Source: an uncultured Clostridia bacterium
GTDB taxonomy: Bacteria; Bacillota; Clostridia; Christensenellales; DTU072
Assembly (NCBI GenBank): GCA_944372095.1
Contig: CALVYG010000002.1
Span: 1 to 64,000 of the forward strand
Direction of reading: 5' to 3'
Length of the DNA: 64,000 nucleotides
In this document: one piece after another, positions 50,372 to 56,988 of the stretch
Position numbering within the stretch: position 1 is the stretch's first letter
Layout of the letters: the number at the start of each line of letters is the position of its first letter
Notes under the pieces: model-generated
Told to the model about the DNA's origin: nothing
Database searches by the model: none
Seen by the model: only the letters and a program-made list of their open reading frames with translations
Made by a program: the position numbers and the translations under genes

Positions 50372-50401
50372 TTGAATTATTCCCCTCGCGTATGTTATAC
50401 T
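50372..50401 (+). promoter_or_regulatory. promoter of the release-factor-like/helicase operon
   Basis: TTGAAT at 50372-50377, 18-nt spacer, TATACT at 50396-50401. Seven nucleotides later comes an ATG (50409) of an 8-codon ORF. Confidence 0.75.
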
Positions 50402-50408
50402 TATAATT

Positions 50409-50435
50409 ATGGAAACGCGGGGTAAAAAGGTATGA
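50409..50435 (+). CDS. 8-codon leaderless leader ORF overlapping the release-factor-like start
   Basis: ATG at 50409 lies 7 nt after the -10 box, the same spacing as in three leaderless genes of this window. It reads METRGKKV and stops at UGA 50433-50435, which overlaps the ATG at 50432 (ATGA). No other good ribosome site for the next gene is seen (AAAAAGG is only 1 nt from the ATG), so termination-reinitiation could deliver ribosomes to it. The peptide itself is probably not functional. Confidence 0.5.
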
Positions 50436-51457
50436 ACGGTATTTTCGACGGTATAATCGCCGCTTCCGAAAAAACTCTCGAACATTTCTATTCGCTAGAA
50501 GAAATGCTCGAATATCCGGAAGTTCAGGCGGATAAGGCTTACTATTTATCCCTGCTTGCGCAGTACGATAAATTGAAATCCGTTCATATGAAACTATGCG
50601 AACTTAAAAAGACGCTTAAAGAAGAACAAGCCGTTTTAACGCTCGTCTCCCCTTCCGCAACCGAAGAAGAAAATAAACTTTACTCGGAAGAAGCGGCGGA
50701 GTTACGGCAAAAAGCCGAATCGGCGGGAAGAGAGCTTGCCTCTTTGCTCGGCGGAGAAAACGTAAAGGAATTTGCATTCTGCCGTATACGGTTTACGGGC
50801 GAAACCGCCGCAAAAACGGGACAGAAGTTTTATGTCTGCACGGAAAATTACCTTTCCTCACACGGCGTAACGGTAAAAGACGTAAAAAAGATTTTTGCGA
50901 AAAACAACGCGTTTATTCGTGAAATTTCGTTCAAGGCGGAAGGAGCAGACGCGCTTTTGATTTTAAAAACGCTTTGCGGCGCGCATAAAGTAATCGTCCC
51001 GAACGCCCCGTCGGAAGAAATTCTTTTTGCCGCAACGGCGGCGGAACGCCTTTTTTCCCCGCCTGCGGACAGCGAACTGAAAACGGATTTGTTCCATTCC
51101 GGCGGCGCGGGCGGTCAAAATATAAATAAAGTCGAAACCGCAGTAAGAATCACTCATATTCCCTCGGGAATCGTAGTCACCTGTCAGGACGAACGCTCGC
51201 AGCTTAAAAACAAACGCCGCGCTTTGGAAAATCTTACCGCCAAACTCGCGGAAAAACACTACGAAACCGAAAAAATAAGAATCGAAGCGGATTTCAAAAG
51301 ACAATTCTCGTCACACCGTTCGCCTCTTTCGTTCGATACGGCAAACGCAACAATGACCGATACGAGACTTACCTCGGGAAACGAAAAACTTCCGTTCCCT
51401 CCCGACGATAAAACTTTCGCTTCATACATAACGAATCTGATTGCTTTAAGGAAATAA
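50432..51457 (+). CDS. divergent class-I peptide chain release factor homologue
   Basis: A 341-residue RF1/RF2-type protein. Residues 1-110 are helical like RF domain 1. Domain 2/4 follows, and the catalytic loop [11 protein letters not shown] carries GGQ at 227-229, followed by [32 protein letters not shown], the conserved end of the RF-1 domain. The stop-codon reading region is altered. Where RF1 has GVHRVQRVPxTE then GRIHTS, this protein has [14 protein letters not shown] with a shortened loop; neither PxT, SPF nor the IHTS residues remain. It should hydrolyse peptidyl-tRNA on the ribosome but not read stop codons normally, so a rescue role is plausible. Length matches RFs. First main gene of the four-gene operon. 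Confidence 0.8.
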
Positions 51458-51460
51458 ACC

Positions 51461-53875
51461 GTGGAAAAATTTACGCAGCAAGTCACCGTAAATACCGAAA
51501 AAATTATACTGTCGGGCACCCGATGCGTTTATAAAACGGAAAATCTGATTTCGATGACGAGAAAAATTCCGTCAATCGACGATTTTATTTCACGCACCGC
51601 CGAAGCGTTTTTTTCGCTGAACCCGAAATCATCGGACCAAAACGGAAAATATTTCGCCGCGGAAACGGAAAACAAAAAATTTACGTTGTTTTTCCGCCTC
51701 GGCGGACATAACGACAGCCGTCTTACGCGCGACGATATTGTCTTTTATAAATTCATCTCGGCAAACGGCGAAGAAAGCGGCACGGACAGGAGTCTGTCAG
51801 AATATCTCTTGTCAAATCCCGTATTCGTGCTTACGCTTACCGAGCAATCGGACAAGCCCGACGAAAGGGATTTTTCAAAACTCTATCTCGTAAGCGGCGG
51901 AGACGGCGTTAATTTCCCTCTTTTAAGCCCCGTTCAACGCAAAATAGTTGAAACCGAAAACGCAAATATGCTCGTTCAGGGCGTTGCGGGCAGCGGAAAA
52001 ACCAACGTCTGCGTCGAAAAAATCGTCTACTGCGCTTGCCGCAGATACAGAGGTAAAATTTTATATACCACCTTTTCACGCGCTCTGATTACCGAAACGA
52101 AAAAACGCGTATCCCTTTTCCTTAAAAACATTGAGAATTTTACCGAAAAATTCAGAAAAGGCAACGTAGTTTTTCTCGACGATAACCATAAAAAAGCCAT
52201 TGAAAACAAATTGGGTATTGTATTCGATACGGACAGCGACGAAAAAATAGCCGAATCCCTTGAAAATATCGCTTATTTCCTTAAAAACAAAGTCGATTAT
52301 AAACTTATTGAAGACATATACGCCGATAAATTCGACAAAAAACGCACGGCAAACGAATCGTTTTTCATTAACGAATACGTCGGAGAAAGAAAAAATTACC
52401 GTCTGTCCGGCGCGCTTGACAAAATAAAAAATCTTTCGCTCGAAATTATTTATAAAGAAATTTACGGAATGATTTTCGGAAAATACGAGTTGGATTCTCC
52501 GTCCGATATGATGACGCGCGAAGAATACGCGGAAGCCAGAAAAGACAGTTTTTCGCGTAACGAATGCGACGTCATTTACTCCGTCGCGCTCGATTACGCC
52601 GCGTTTCTCGGGAAAAATTCAATTACCGACAACAATGCTATGAGCAGAGAACTTCTTTCTGCCGTTTCTTCGCCGCAGTATTCCGTGGGAATAATCGACG
52701 AAGCGCAGGATTTTACTCAGGTTAATCTCTGTCTTATCAAAAAACTCTGTATAAAACTTTTCTGCGTCGGAGACGCTTTACAAATGATAAATCCGTCCTA
52801 TTTCGGCTTCGGATATCTTAAACGGCTTATGTACGGGGACGTAACCGGTGTCACCGAACTTAAACACAACTACCGCAGCTCGGAAAAAATTGAAAAAATA
52901 GCGGAAAAACTCGGCGAATTGAACGTAAAAAGGTTCGGAACGCACAGTTTCGTTCTGAAAGGAGAAAGCGTGGACTCGGGGACGCCCACCGCCGCCGTAT
53001 TCGTTCACGACAAGGATTTCGCCTCTTCTCTTAAAGACAAGCGTTTTGAAAACGTCACCGTAATCGTCGCTTCGCAGAAGAAAAAAGAGTATCTGCGCTC
53101 CAAACTCGCAAAAACGGAAATTCTTACCGTAGCGGAAGCCAAAGGTCTCGAACGCAACACCGTTATTCTGGCGGACGTATTAAGCGACAACGCCGACAAA
53201 TGGCATTATCTCCAAAATATGTCTTTGAACAGAAAAACCGCTGACGAAAATTCCGTCTTCCGTTATTATTTCAATCTGTTTTACGTCGGAATTTCACGCG
53301 CAAAACAATATTTATTCGTATCGGAATCGAATTATCCTCCGATTTTCGAAAATTTGTTTTCCGAATGTTTTGAAAAAAAATCAAAGTCGGAAGCTGTCGG
53401 ATTTTTATCGGAAGTCGCTGGAAAAATAGAACTTGACGACGAAGAACTTATCGAAAGAATAAGAAAATTCTGCGAACTCGAACAGTACGAAAACGCGCTG
53501 TTTACCGCAGACAGACTGTCTGACGACAAACTCCGCGAGGAAGAACGAAACCGTATCTATATAAGCGAACGCTATCTGCGTTACGGAAACGACCGCGAAG
53601 CGGGTATAGAATATTGGAAACGCGGAATGGAACGGGACGCACGCGAAGCGTTTATCCGCTCGGGCGACGAAAAACTCCTTCCGTTAATGGACGCCTGCTC
53701 GGGCGGCGGAGGCGGAACGCTCGACGTCGATATCGTACGTTTCTTCCCTCTCGTCTCAGACAACGACATCGCGAAAAAACTTATCATTGACACAGTTAAA
53801 AACGATTATAACACAATTATGGGTATCCAAAAATCATTAAACGATTCCCTTAAACCCAAAAGGAGAAAACAATGA
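51461..53875 (+). CDS. UvrD/Rep-like SF1 helicase with extra N- and C-terminal regions
   Basis: An 804-residue superfamily 1A helicase. After a 150-residue N-terminal region without a known match come the Q-motif LLSPVQRKIV (about 154-163), Walker A QGVAGSGKTN (about 173-182), motif Ia TTFSRAL, Walker B IIDEAQDFT (about 409-417), motif III GDALQMI, motif IV ELKHNYRSSEKI (about 465), motif V TVAEAKGLERNTV and motif VI YVGISRAKQYLFV (about 608-620). Inserts between Ia and II are helical. The last 180 residues form a helical repeat-like tail. It should translocate on single-stranded nucleic acid with ATP. GTG start after AAGGAA, 3 nt past the release-factor-like stop; its stop overlaps the next gene by 4 nt. 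Confidence 0.85.
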   Translation: MEKFTQQVTVNTEKIILSGTRCVYKTENLISMTRKIPSIDDFISRTAEAFFSLNPKSSDQNGKYFAAETENKKFTLFFRLGGHNDSRLTRDDIVFYKFISANGEESGTDRSLSEYLLSNPVFVLTLTEQSDKPDERDFSKLYLVSGGDGVNFPLLSPVQRKIVETENANMLVQGVAGSGKTNVCVEKIVYCACRRYRGKILYTTFSRALITETKKRVSLFLKNIENFTEKFRKGNVVFLDDNHKKAIENKLGIVFDTDSDEKIAESLENIAYFLKNKVDYKLIEDIYADKFDKKRTANESFFINEYVGERKNYRLSGALDKIKNLSLEIIYKEIYGMIFGKYELDSPSDMMTREEYAEARKDSFSRNECDVIYSVALDYAAFLGKNSITDNNAMSRELLSAVSSPQYSVGIIDEAQDFTQVNLCLIKKLCIKLFCVGDALQMINPSYFGFGYLKRLMYGDVTGVTELKHNYRSSEKIEKIAEKLGELNVKRFGTHSFVLKGESVDSGTPTAAVFVHDKDFASSLKDKRFENVTVIVASQKKKEYLRSKLAKTEILTVAEAKGLERNTVILADVLSDNADKWHYLQNMSLNRKTADENSVFRYYFNLFYVGISRAKQYLFVSESNYPPIFENLFSECFEKKSKSEAVGFLSEVAGKIELDDEELIERIRKFCELEQYENALFTADRLSDDKLREEERNRIYISERYLRYGNDREAGIEYWKRGMERDAREAFIRSGDEKLLPLMDACSGGGGGTLDVDIVRFFPLVSDNDIAKKLIIDTVKNDYNTIMGIQKSLNDSLKPKRRKQ

Positions 53876-54591
53876 GCGACATCAGCGAACTTAAAGAACT
53901 TATCGACAGTTTCGTTGCCTACCGCAACGTTCTGGTTCCTCTGCAAGAAAGTCTCAAATCCATATCCGATACTTTTTTTTCCATACGCGACGACCTTGAC
54001 GGAATGAATAAAGCGTTTTCGGGAAACGCCGGCGCACAGCTCGAAAAAATTCATTCCACTCTTAACGCTCAGGCTGACAGCGGACGGGAACTCACAAGAA
54101 AAATCGAAGAGTTTTCCGTTTCCGGTGAAAAATATGCGCGCTCGGTCGATGAAATGCTGAAAAAATTCGACGAGGTCGGCAAACGCCTCGCAACGGTAAA
54201 CGAACTTGAAAAAAACGCGGAAAATATTCTTTCGCGTCTTGAAACGGTTATCGCGGAAAAACGCGCTTCATACAACCTTAAAGATTTACAGAAATCTCTC
54301 GATTCCTATAATATGAACGTTGAAAAAATAAGTGATTTCATAAATAAAGACGTCGCTTCTGTTTTACAGGAAAACGCCAAAAAAATCGAACAGATAAAAA
54401 AGGAAAACGAATTGCTTTCCGCCGCCGTCAACGAACAGAACAAAACGGTTGCGGAACTTACTCTGACTTTCCGCGAAACGTCTTCCCTGCTTAAAAAAGC
54501 CGCCGAAAGCGGCACCGTTAACGAAGAGTATCTCTTCGACGCCTTCGACAAATGGGCGGCTGACAGAAAAGTTAAAATAAAGAAAAAATAA
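53872..54591 (+). CDS. coiled-coil protein of the helicase operon
   Basis: A 239-residue protein that is almost all helix: SDISELKELIDSFVAYRNVL, LQESLKSISDTFFSIRDDLD, then several heptad stretches and a basic end (KWAADRKVKIKKK). No membrane segment, no signal, no enzyme motif. The start overlaps the helicase stop (ATGA) with AAGGAG upstream, so its amount is tied to the helicase. It may scaffold the helicase or link it to the membrane protein encoded 4 nt downstream; this is inference. Confidence 0.7.
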   Translation: MSDISELKELIDSFVAYRNVLVPLQESLKSISDTFFSIRDDLDGMNKAFSGNAGAQLEKIHSTLNAQADSGRELTRKIEEFSVSGEKYARSVDEMLKKFDEVGKRLATVNELEKNAENILSRLETVIAEKRASYNLKDLQKSLDSYNMNVEKISDFINKDVASVLQENAKKIEQIKKENELLSAAVNEQNKTVAELTLTFRETSSLLKKAAESGTVNEEYLFDAFDKWAADRKVKIKKK

Positions 54592-54594
54592 ATT

Positions 54595-56988
54595 ATGAAC
54601 GAACTACTTGCGAAAAAACTGTTCGACAGCATAAAAAAAGACGACCTCAAATCGTTTGACGAATGTATGGAGGAATTTCCGTGCGGAACCTTGCGTTTCG
54701 GACGTTTTCCCGTTTTATCGCTTTTATATTTGTTCTCCGCAAAGAAAATTACCGCCGCATACGAGGAAAAGTTTCTGAAAACCAACTCGTGGCAGGAACT
54801 TGACGAACCTCAGTTCGTTTCGGTTTTGTTCCGTAAAAAAGCGGGCAAATGCTTACGCTTATATCTCGACGAGGTTGTTTCTCCTCTCGAAATGCTTCTA
54901 ATACTTGACAAAACGTCAAAACTTAAACGCGTTTATCCTCTTTCCCGTCCGTCGTCTGCCGTAAAACAGCGTCTTAAAGAAATTTATTTCGTCAAATACG
55001 CTCTGAACGTAAGCTACGAGGGAGACAATATCGTTCTCGACAGACGTCCGTTGAAAAAATCGGAAAAACGCCGTATACTCATTGCCGCAGTAAGCTCGGT
55101 TCTTTGTATTGCGATTGCGGTCGGAACTCCGTTCGTTGTCAACGCTTTCGTGCCGTTTATCGGAATTTCCGACGACAATCCGTCAACGCCCGACAATCCC
55201 TCGGACGGCGGAAATACCGATAATCCCGATAATCCTTCCGACGATACGGAGAAAAAATATTATAACGTTTCGTCTTTCGAAGAAATAGATTTTGCTTCGC
55301 AAAACGTCTATACCCTCACCGCCGATATTACGGTTCCGAACGGTTTTTACGCCGAACAACTGAACTGTGAGCTTAACGGCGGCGGCAAAACCGTAACCGT
55401 TTCGGATAATAATCCTTTGTTCGGCGTAGTTACAGGTACGGTAAGAGATATTGTTTTCAGTTTTTCGGGCGATATTTCCGTTTCGGAAAATTTCGCGTTC
55501 GTTACGCTGTTAAACCTCGGAACGATTAAAAACGTCACTTTGAACGTAAGCGGAAAACTTACGGCAACCCTCGGAGAACAATCGACCGACGGCGGAATAA
55601 CCGTCGCCGGAATAGCCGTCGCGAACGGACCGTCAAGTTCAATATTTACCTACGGTCAAATCGATTCCTGTACGGTTAATTACAATGATTTCAATATTGT
55701 CGGAAACGTATACGCAAACGCAACTTACGGCGGAATAGCGGGCACGAATTACGCTTATCTCAGAAACTGCACCGTTTCGGGGAAAATCACTTCCGATACG
55801 CTCGACATTGCGGGAATATGCGTCACGAACAATTATTCTCTTTCGTCTTGCACCAACCGTGCGTCCCTTACCCAGAAATCCTCTTCCCCCGATTGGAACC
55901 CGATTGTTGCGGGAATCGTTACGACAAATTCGCGCTCTCTTACTTCCTGCGTAAATTACGGTGAAATATCCGCTCAATCGGAAAATACCGACACCGCGCA
56001 CGAAGAAAACACCGACCCGTCCGTTTCCGCAGCGGGAATTGCTTACCTTAACAGAGGCACGTTTCCCGCTCTGATAATAAGCCAAAGCATAAATTACGGT
56101 AAAATTTCCGCTTCATCGAAAGACAGAACTTCCTATGCGGCGGGGATATGTATATCGTCGTCAGGCGGAATACGCGAGTGTCTTAACGAGCGCGGCGCCG
56201 ACGTTGTGTCTGAAAACCGTTCGGATTTTTCTTCGTACGGAGGAGGTATTTCCGTATACGCTTACGGCTATGTGTACGGTTCGGTAAATAAAGGCGACGT
56301 TACCGTATCGTCTGCCGAAGGCAACGCTTATTCGGGCGGAATTACGGCTTATTCTTACGTGGAAATATCGCTGTCTCTTTCCTCGGGCAACGTATCTTCG
56401 TCGGGTGCTTCCGCTTACTCCGGCGGAATACTCGCCTATTCGTCCGTTACGTCGAGCGGGAATTTCGTTTACTTCGGTACGGTTACCCAATGTGTATTCA
56501 ACGGTACATTGTCTTCTGTTGCGGAATCGGAAAGTTTTGCCGGAGGCATTGTCGGGTTCGTTGAAGAAAAACTTTTTAACGAAGGCAAGGATTCCGAAAC
56601 CTATTTCGGAGGCGGAGTCACGGAATCGTATTTCACGGGCTCGTTTTCGGGTTCTTCTTCCGCAAGCCGTAACGGAGGCATTGCCGCCGCCTGCGGAAAA
56701 AACATTCACGACAGTAACGCCTATTCGGACAGCGGCGGCAACGTCCACAACAATTTCAAAGACAATTATTTTGTTCCCTCCCTCGACTCTCTGCTTGCCG
56801 TAGGTTTCGTCACGGCGGACGGAACGGCTTTCTCTTCCGGAAGCAACGTCGGCGCTTCTTCCGTTACGATTGACGTCATAAATAATTCGGAAACTTACAA
56901 AAAAATTCTTTCGGCTTTGTCGTCTTTAACCGGTAATACAGGAAATTCCTCCGAGGACACAAACGGCAACGGTGCGGTATCGGTTTGA
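54595..56988 (+). CDS. type-II membrane protein with extracellular beta-helix
   Basis: A 797-residue protein without a signal peptide. Residues 1-158 are a cytoplasmic helical domain (ELLAKKLFDSIKKDDLKSFD, RFGRFPVLSLLYLFSAKK). Residues about 160-188 (RRILIAAVSSVLCIAIAVGT) are the one membrane helix. A linker with repeated DNPSD units (about 193-222) and a long beta-helix of GLUG-like repeats (about 225-790) follow, e.g. NATYGGIAGTNYAYLRNCTV, YAAGICISSSGGIRECLN and AYSGGITAYSYVEISLSL. The basic side before the helix puts the N-terminus inside and the beta-helix outside. It could sense or bind outside and signal inward through the N-terminal domain. Last gene of the operon; followed by a terminator. 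Confidence 0.75.
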   Translation: MNELLAKKLFDSIKKDDLKSFDECMEEFPCGTLRFGRFPVLSLLYLFSAKKITAAYEEKFLKTNSWQELDEPQFVSVLFRKKAGKCLRLYLDEVVSPLEMLLILDKTSKLKRVYPLSRPSSAVKQRLKEIYFVKYALNVSYEGDNIVLDRRPLKKSEKRRILIAAVSSVLCIAIAVGTPFVVNAFVPFIGISDDNPSTPDNPSDGGNTDNPDNPSDDTEKKYYNVSSFEEIDFASQNVYTLTADITVPNGFYAEQLNCELNGGGKTVTVSDNNPLFGVVTGTVRDIVFSFSGDISVSENFAFVTLLNLGTIKNVTLNVSGKLTATLGEQSTDGGITVAGIAVANGPSSSIFTYGQIDSCTVNYNDFNIVGNVYANATYGGIAGTNYAYLRNCTVSGKITSDTLDIAGICVTNNYSLSSCTNRASLTQKSSSPDWNPIVAGIVTTNSRSLTSCVNYGEISAQSENTDTAHEENTDPSVSAAGIAYLNRGTFPALIISQSINYGKISASSKDRTSYAAGICISSSGGIRECLNERGADVVSENRSDFSSYGGGISVYAYGYVYGSVNKGDVTVSSAEGNAYSGGITAYSYVEISLSLSSGNVSSSGASAYSGGILAYSSVTSSGNFVYFGTVTQCVFNGTLSSVAESESFAGGIVGFVEEKLFNEGKDSETYFGGGVTESYFTGSFSGSSSASRNGGIAAACGKNIHDSNAYSDSGGNVHNNFKDNYFVPSLDSLLAVGFVTADGTAFSSGSNVGASSVTIDVINNSETYKKILSALSSLTGNTGNSSEDTNGNGAVSV

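Follow-up and report, generated by a model that had tools for sequence, protein, structure and literature searches.

The AUGA tetranucleotide, in which a stop codon and a start codon overlap, is the classical overlap for translational coupling, and in the autoregulatory frameshift of RF2 (prfB) a UGA codon lies early in the message of a gene of the release-factor (RF) family. Some E. coli mRNAs carry an AUG at their 5' end (5'-uAUG), followed by a short upstream frame (uORF). As described in the part of Beck et al. 2016 (PMC4965119) dealing with these genes, rhaB has an 8-aa 5'-uORF with an ATGA overlap and mutation of the uAUG changed nothing, while the expression of ptrB depends on the 5' AUG, mutation of which leaves less than 8%. 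Of the S. pyogenes mRNAs 8.6% are leaderless, as are the messages of roughly one in three D. radiodurans genes, according to portions of PMC6431027, PMC12340547 and PMC3160421. With regard to the factors themselves, section 2.4 of PMC6514570 lists RF1, RF2, ArfB and prfH, and in the relevant portion of PMC11633108 no third RF was found either. No description of the operon presented below, or of a leaderless release factor, was found in the open-access literature.

The window analysed here is a stretch of 64,000 nucleotides from an uncultured Clostridia bacterium. An earlier note on this DNA had pointed to a -10 box followed, after 7 nt, by an 8-codon frame whose UGA overlaps the ATG of a release-factor-like gene, and had proposed that translation of this gene may need ribosomes terminating at that UGA. 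The features of the locus, read like all that follows from sequence, are given below.

50372..50401, plus strand: predicted promoter, from sequence and promoter scan; -35 TTGAAT 50372-50377, 18 nt spacer, extended -10 TGT-TATACT 50393-50401
50402..50407, plus strand: alternative -10 box, exact match to TATAAT, without TG extension
50409..50435, plus strand: predicted 8-codon 5'-terminal uORF METRGKKV* (ATG GAA ACG CGG GGT AAA AAG GTA TGA)
50419..50423, plus strand: Shine-Dalgarno-like GGGGU within the uORF, 8 nt 5' of the ATG at 50432; -6.4 kcal/mol
50432..51457, plus strand: third RF1-like factor, 341 aa, with GGQ kept and GAGGxEA and the PxT/HTS segment lost (domains, alignments, tree)
51461..53875, plus strand: SF1 (UvrD/HelD-like) helicase of 804 aa, starting with GTG 3 nt downstream of the RF stop
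53872..54591, plus strand: conserved coiled-coil protein of 239 aa whose start overlaps the helicase stop as ATGA
54595..56988, plus strand: 797 aa protein with a conserved N-terminus, a hydrophobic stretch and a long repetitive C-terminal part

The anatomy set out by the earlier note is borne out except in what it says of the Shine-Dalgarno: TATACT at 50396-50401 is followed by 7 nt and by the uORF ATG at 50409, and the uORF UGA at 50433-50435 overlaps the ATG of the RF gene at 50432 as AUGA.

A third release-factor-like protein and its gene cluster

The frame at 50432-51457 matches the RF-1 and PCRF domains, the former with 96.6 bits against 35, and the GGQ-bearing RF-1 domain together with the RF fold places the product in the class-I release factor superfamily. 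Its AF2 model (pLDDT 87.8, pTM 0.62) has its best fold matches in RF1 and RF2 on ribosomes, with an E value of 1.4e-19 to RF1. Identity with canonical RF1 was rejected, as the protein scores 126.5 and 122.8 bits with prfA equivalog models whose cut-offs are 400 and 423.25, lacks GAGGxEA and the PxT/HTS segment, and coexists with genuine RF1 and RF2 encoded on other contigs of the same genome. PrfH/RFH was discarded as well (72.9 against 166.65 bits, with the N-terminal helical part present), and so was ArfB (43.3 against 100 bits). A quick tree built on 48 rows unites the 29 rows of third RFs in one long-branched clade (SH-aLRT 100), which groups with RF1 and not with RF2; the window protein and that of G004, two long branches, pair within it, the pairing being unsure. 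The third RFs evolve fast (mean column identity 41%). GGQ is invariant in 23/23 aligned members; compared with RF1/RF2 of the same lineage, GAGGxEA and RVPxTESQGRxHTS, the latter present in the RF1 of the window genome, are missing from them. The PxT segment is the stop-codon reader of RF1, and UGA is read by RF2. By its sequence, then, the gene downstream of the uORF is an RF1-derived paralog, neither RF1 nor RF2. Because the decoding segment is lost and GGQ is kept, and by analogy with PrfH and ArfB, the product is most likely a codon-independent factor that would release or rescue ribosomes without a proper stop codon. Membership of the release-factor family, as first proposed, is retained; the product cannot be expected to read UGA, the stop-codon-reading segment having been lost. 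The RF2 of the window genome (L002) is encoded in one uninterrupted frame of 371 aa, so that the prfB frameshift seems absent from this genome.

The third RF is accompanied by the same genes in most loci. Among 30 third-RF neighbourhoods, some of them cut by contig ends, blast clusters place the SF1 helicase in 23, the coiled coil in 21 and the membrane protein in 20, and the usual order is RF, helicase, coiled coil, membrane protein. Mean column identity is 55% for the helicase and 58% for the coiled coil, against 41% for the RF. The hydrophobic stretch of the 797 aa protein was read by eye as one transmembrane helix, and a GLUG match is confined to its homolog in G008; the helicase carries extra N- and C-terminal parts. 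The libraries searched gave no specific name for any of the three proteins encoded at 51461-56988, and RtcB is not among the typed neighbours in the window (flavoprotein, helicase, coiled coil, membrane protein, transporter).

Co-occurrence extends beyond adjacency. Within the family, 26 of 40 genomes have the coiled coil, 25 with a clear third RF and one (G016) with a doubtful RF-like fragment, and in the other 14 the coiled coil was not found. Included are genomes in which RF and coiled coil lie apart (G007, G001, G028 and G017, the locus of the last ending at a contig end). An order-wide draw yielded the coiled coil in 65 of 396 genomes, and all 24 genomes outside the family that have a second RF1-like match at 1e-70 carry it (24/24). 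In the reverse direction, 40 coiled-coil loci (39 from other families and that of G016) showed an RF nearby in 27 cases and none in 13, of which 11 belong to genus g51 and the others are cut by contig ends. In g51, a genus of family f17, helicase and coiled coil occur without an adjoining RF (L167-L169, L173-L179, L200), and one of its genomes, G082, has an RF-like gene on another contig (L136). In G007 (L078) and G001 (L080), of one genus, two other genes, of 546/549 and 223 aa, stand behind the third RF in place of the helicase operon, and the coiled coil is on a contig other than that of the third RF.

Several identities for the cluster were considered and dropped. The helicase resembles GajB (69.3 bits), but the PADLOC match of the RF reaches just 17 bits, which does not make a known defence system; in the same search the membrane protein had no match and the coiled coil matched other coiled coils weakly. 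A mobile element was discarded with the helicase not seen in phages and the coiled coil seen neither in plasmids nor in viral contigs; RF-like matches do occur in viral contigs. A RelE-like N-terminus of the helicase, guessed from strand order, did not appear in the fold search. Both tmRNA (130.2 bits) and SmpB are present in the window genome, and in the family 24/40 genomes pass the tmRNA cut-off and 33/40 have SmpB, so that a simple replacement of trans-translation is not indicated.

Promoter spacing at the orthologous starts

The 57 third-RF genes taken had their starts set by profile alignment and the nearest ATG, which placed 56; G016 (the doubtful fragment), G016b (an RF2), G035b (a 3' fragment) and G336 (start cut off) had been left out before the count. 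The start that the script did not place, G082x, reads by eye TGGTAATAT, 6 nt, ATG. A TGnTAnnnT box ends 5-8 nt 5' of the ATG at 26 of the 56 starts, and at exactly 6 nt in 22 of them, a distance at which the usual -10 spacing would make the A of the AUG the first transcribed base. These 26 span 7 genera and 5 families, one of them (G096) with a weak box; genus g44 supplies 8, and a full TTGACA with a 17-nt spacer is present in 6. The very box of the window, TGTTATACT, stands at a distance of 6-7 nt from the start in G026, G257, G320, G376 and G384. At a further 9/56 starts a -10-like box stands 9-11 nt away, and 3/56 have a box at 5-8 nt without the TG; G401, G138 and G034, with a -10-like box at 6 nt that has no TG, were excluded from the 26. 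In 18/56 orthologs there is no -10 close to the start, and several of these genes lie inside operons.

In 500 shuffles of the 56 starts the mean was 0.56 and the maximum 4, against 26 observed, and background genes from the same stretches gave 12/715, or 12/411 when restricted to free upstream sequence (Fisher values 6e-24 and 2.6e-18, which ignore shared ancestry). An earlier count with a stricter box and a 5-10 nt window found 5/488 background genes, and at the RF1/RF2 loci compared the strict box at 5-10 nt occurs in none. Judged by this spacing, the RF mRNA is probably leaderless in many relatives, and the leaderless -10/ATG geometry to which the earlier note had drawn attention in the window recurs, with the same kind of box, at 26/56 orthologous starts.

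Among the background genes, too, extended -10 boxes peak slightly at 6 nt 5' of the ATG (7 of the hits), which may mean that this order has a small but genuine class of leaderless genes. A further leaderless candidate of the window genome, on the minus strand of L103 (position 10991 of the reverse complement), has TGATATAAT 8 nt 5' of the ATG of a putative dnaA gene.

The leader in the window and its possible readings

The window departs from this pattern. Its box TGTTATACT ends 7 nt 5' of the uAUG and 30 nt 5' of the RF ATG, so that the leaderless spacing is found for the former and not for the latter; the uAUG at 50409 occupies the place taken in many orthologs by the leaderless start codon, and about 23 nt separate it from the RF AUG. 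The RF start codes for MNGIF and those of the f3/f6 orthologs for MYGIY, with the DNA pattern ATG-xxC-GGT-ATT-Txx common to both, which identifies 50432 as the homologous start. In the intervening leader lies GGGGU, and the claim that the gene has no well-spaced Shine-Dalgarno (SD) has to be given up: at 8 nt spacing, its pairing energy of -6.4 kcal/mol is the median of 179 called starts of the window genome, and it is matched or beaten at 10.7% of 2000 random positions. The usual anti-SD was assumed, since no 16S rRNA gene was found in the window assembly. No structure occluding the RF start was detected beyond the level of shuffles (z 0.17). Across the orthologs SD strength goes with the leader: the five starts with a leader (distances 20-31, window included) have an SD of -6.4 kcal/mol or stronger in 5/5, and the leaderless-type starts one of -5.6 or weaker in 26/26 (Mann-Whitney p 0.00026).

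The uORF is of another kind. None of the other four leadered orthologs has an AUG where the nearer -10 box would put the 5' end (in G373 a second, farther box has an AUG 4 nt on), and with an SD wherever there is a leader and a 5' AUG in the window only, the uORF falls outside the pattern. It was seen in the window genome alone among the genomes compared. Exact AUGA overlaps at other third-RF orthologs are limited to G028, where the upstream ATG overlaps a -10-like box and would hence not be transcribed, and G004, where the overlap is formed with an ordinary upstream gene and not with a uORF. That upstream gene (L077, 4105-4670), which by eye resembles a TetR-type regulator, ends in the UGA that forms the AUGA with the RF ATG. 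The conservation of ATG, UGA and overlap on which the earlier note made its proposal depend is thus not found among orthologs that are at most about 38% identical. The nearest of these are 32-38% identical, so that the leader comparison lacks close relatives and the uORF could be conserved in closer species; a scan of genome contigs for such relatives returned one locus, 34% identical and with the form of an ordinary RF1.

Chance rates bear differently on the parts of the arrangement. A uORF started by ATG within 60 nt forms the exact AUGA overlap at 141/6447 ATG triplets (2.2%), at 141/1794 ATGA (7.9%) and at 5 of the 72 called ATG genes of the window genome whose upstream sequence is free. 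An extended -10 ending 5-8 nt 5' of an ATG is found at 23/6479 triplets (0.35%), and in its strict form at 5/6479. At these rates the overlap has nothing unusual about it, and what carries information is the spacing between promoter and ATG. The promoter match at the window is not significant by itself, the scan giving 2 sites of the TTGAAT/18/TATACT kind against 1.4 +- 1.2 in shuffles, and an AUG follows 5-8 nt downstream at 5/73 strict extended -10 sites of the window genome, so that the 5' AUG could be a matter of chance.

The account that we favour, with roughly an even chance of being right, is that the third RF heads a conserved operon, leaderless in many relatives, which in the window has an SD-led leader with a lineage-specific uORF as by-product. 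In many relatives the promoter would stand 6 nt from the gene, the mRNA would begin at the RF AUG and translation would be leaderless. In the window the 23 nt or so between the two AUG positions would give a short leader with GGGGU, from which 30S subunits would most likely initiate the RF gene. The AUG at the predicted 5' end would open the 8-codon frame, the overlap of its UGA with the RF AUG being fortuitous; expression may gain from 70S ribosomes loading at the 5' AUG and from re-initiation, neither of which would be required, and the uORF would be a by-product of the lineage rather than a sensor of termination. Against this account stand the perfect TATAAT at 50402-50407, which could start the transcript near 50414 and drop the uAUG, and the distribution of the boxes, 18/56 orthologs having no -10 near the start and g44 alone giving 8 of the 26.

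Taken as the true -10 box, TATAAT at 50402 would leave the AUG at 50409 outside the transcript and the uORF untranslated, with an ordinary leader of about 18 nt containing the SD. The hexamer is exact and the SD is at its usual spacing, but TATAAT has no TG extension, the scan gives it no -35 partner, and the orthologs show TGTTATACT at 6-7 nt instead; we hold this reading to be rather doubtful. Re-initiation coupled to termination, in which a 70S ribosome would load at the 5' AUG, translate 8 codons, terminate at UGA and begin again at the overlapping AUG, so that RF translation depends on the uORF, agrees with the leaderless position of the uAUG, with the coupling overlap and with the ptrB result, where loss of the uAUG cut downstream expression to under 8% (PMC4965119, in the part cited). 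In rhaB, of the same anatomy, the mutation was without effect (same part of PMC4965119), and here the SD is of median strength, no structure hides the start and the uORF is absent from orthologs. We regard the dependence of RF translation on ribosomes ending at the UGA, as originally suggested, as unlikely. The leaderless AUG might alternatively be the true start, with a -1 shift on A-AAG, or an error in the length of the run of five A, joining METRGKK to the RF frame. The two frames are one base apart and an A run does lie between the two AUGs, but the M at 50432 aligns with the ortholog starts, also at the DNA level, so that no N-terminal addition is expected, and no canonical slippery heptamer is present; this is very improbable. 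Least credible of all is a direct feedback on termination, also put forward in the earlier note, by which the RF-like product would set release at the uORF UGA and hence its own synthesis. A UGA does overlap the start of a release-factor family gene, but with the PxT/HTS segment absent and UGA belonging to RF2 the product's own activity should not set termination there; the uORF is not conserved, nor was any conserved stop-codon element found upstream of the RF start among the orthologs compared.

A bolder extension of the favoured account is tentative and, in our estimate, rather doubtful: a codon-blind peptidyl-tRNA hydrolase derived from RF1, an SF1 helicase, a coiled coil and a membrane protein would form an undescribed ribosome-release system whose first gene is leaderless for translation by 70S ribosomes, and the split-off 5' AUG of the window would still load ribosomes. 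Leaderlessness would let 70S ribosomes translate the RF when canonical initiation or rescue fails, and would on that ground have been kept in several families of one order. If true, many bacteria of the order would carry a third class-I RF unable to recognise stop codons, linked to a helicase operon by co-occurring with it, and with a message kept leaderless while some 2-3% of the sampled genes look leaderless. This would offer a natural test case for why some genes stay leaderless (70S translation in stressed cells) and would point towards a new pathway of ribosome release. Little would then hang on the uORF itself, and of the two it is the third-RF operon, conserved and leaderless, that holds the greater interest.

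Comparison with described systems

The window needs no frameshift, its element is not conserved and its product is not RF2, in all of which it differs from prfB. The E. coli 5'-uAUG mRNAs are a direct precedent, and with them the window shares an AUG at or near the (here predicted) 5' end, a short out-of-frame uORF and an SD in the leader. In E. coli, however, the 5' ends are known and constructs were tested, the 5' end in the window being a prediction, and in the relatives of the window the position of the 5' AUG is that of the gene's own start. Streptococcal and Deinococcus leaderless genes likewise have an extended or TANNNT -10 a few nt 5' of the ATG and are conserved between species, as far as the relevant parts of PMC6431027, PMC12340547 and PMC3160421 go; unlike there, the feature is found here in 12/715 background genes and in 26/56 members of one gene family. 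PrfH/RFH, too, is a third class-I RF; its decoding part is altered and it belongs to a conserved gene pair with RtcB, in the portions of PMC1586002 and PMC6514570 that concern it. By the same portions RFH is without domain 1, whereas the third RF keeps its N-terminal helical domain and loses the decoding segment, and in place of the RtcB of PrfH it is accompanied by an SF1 helicase, a coiled-coil protein and a membrane protein.
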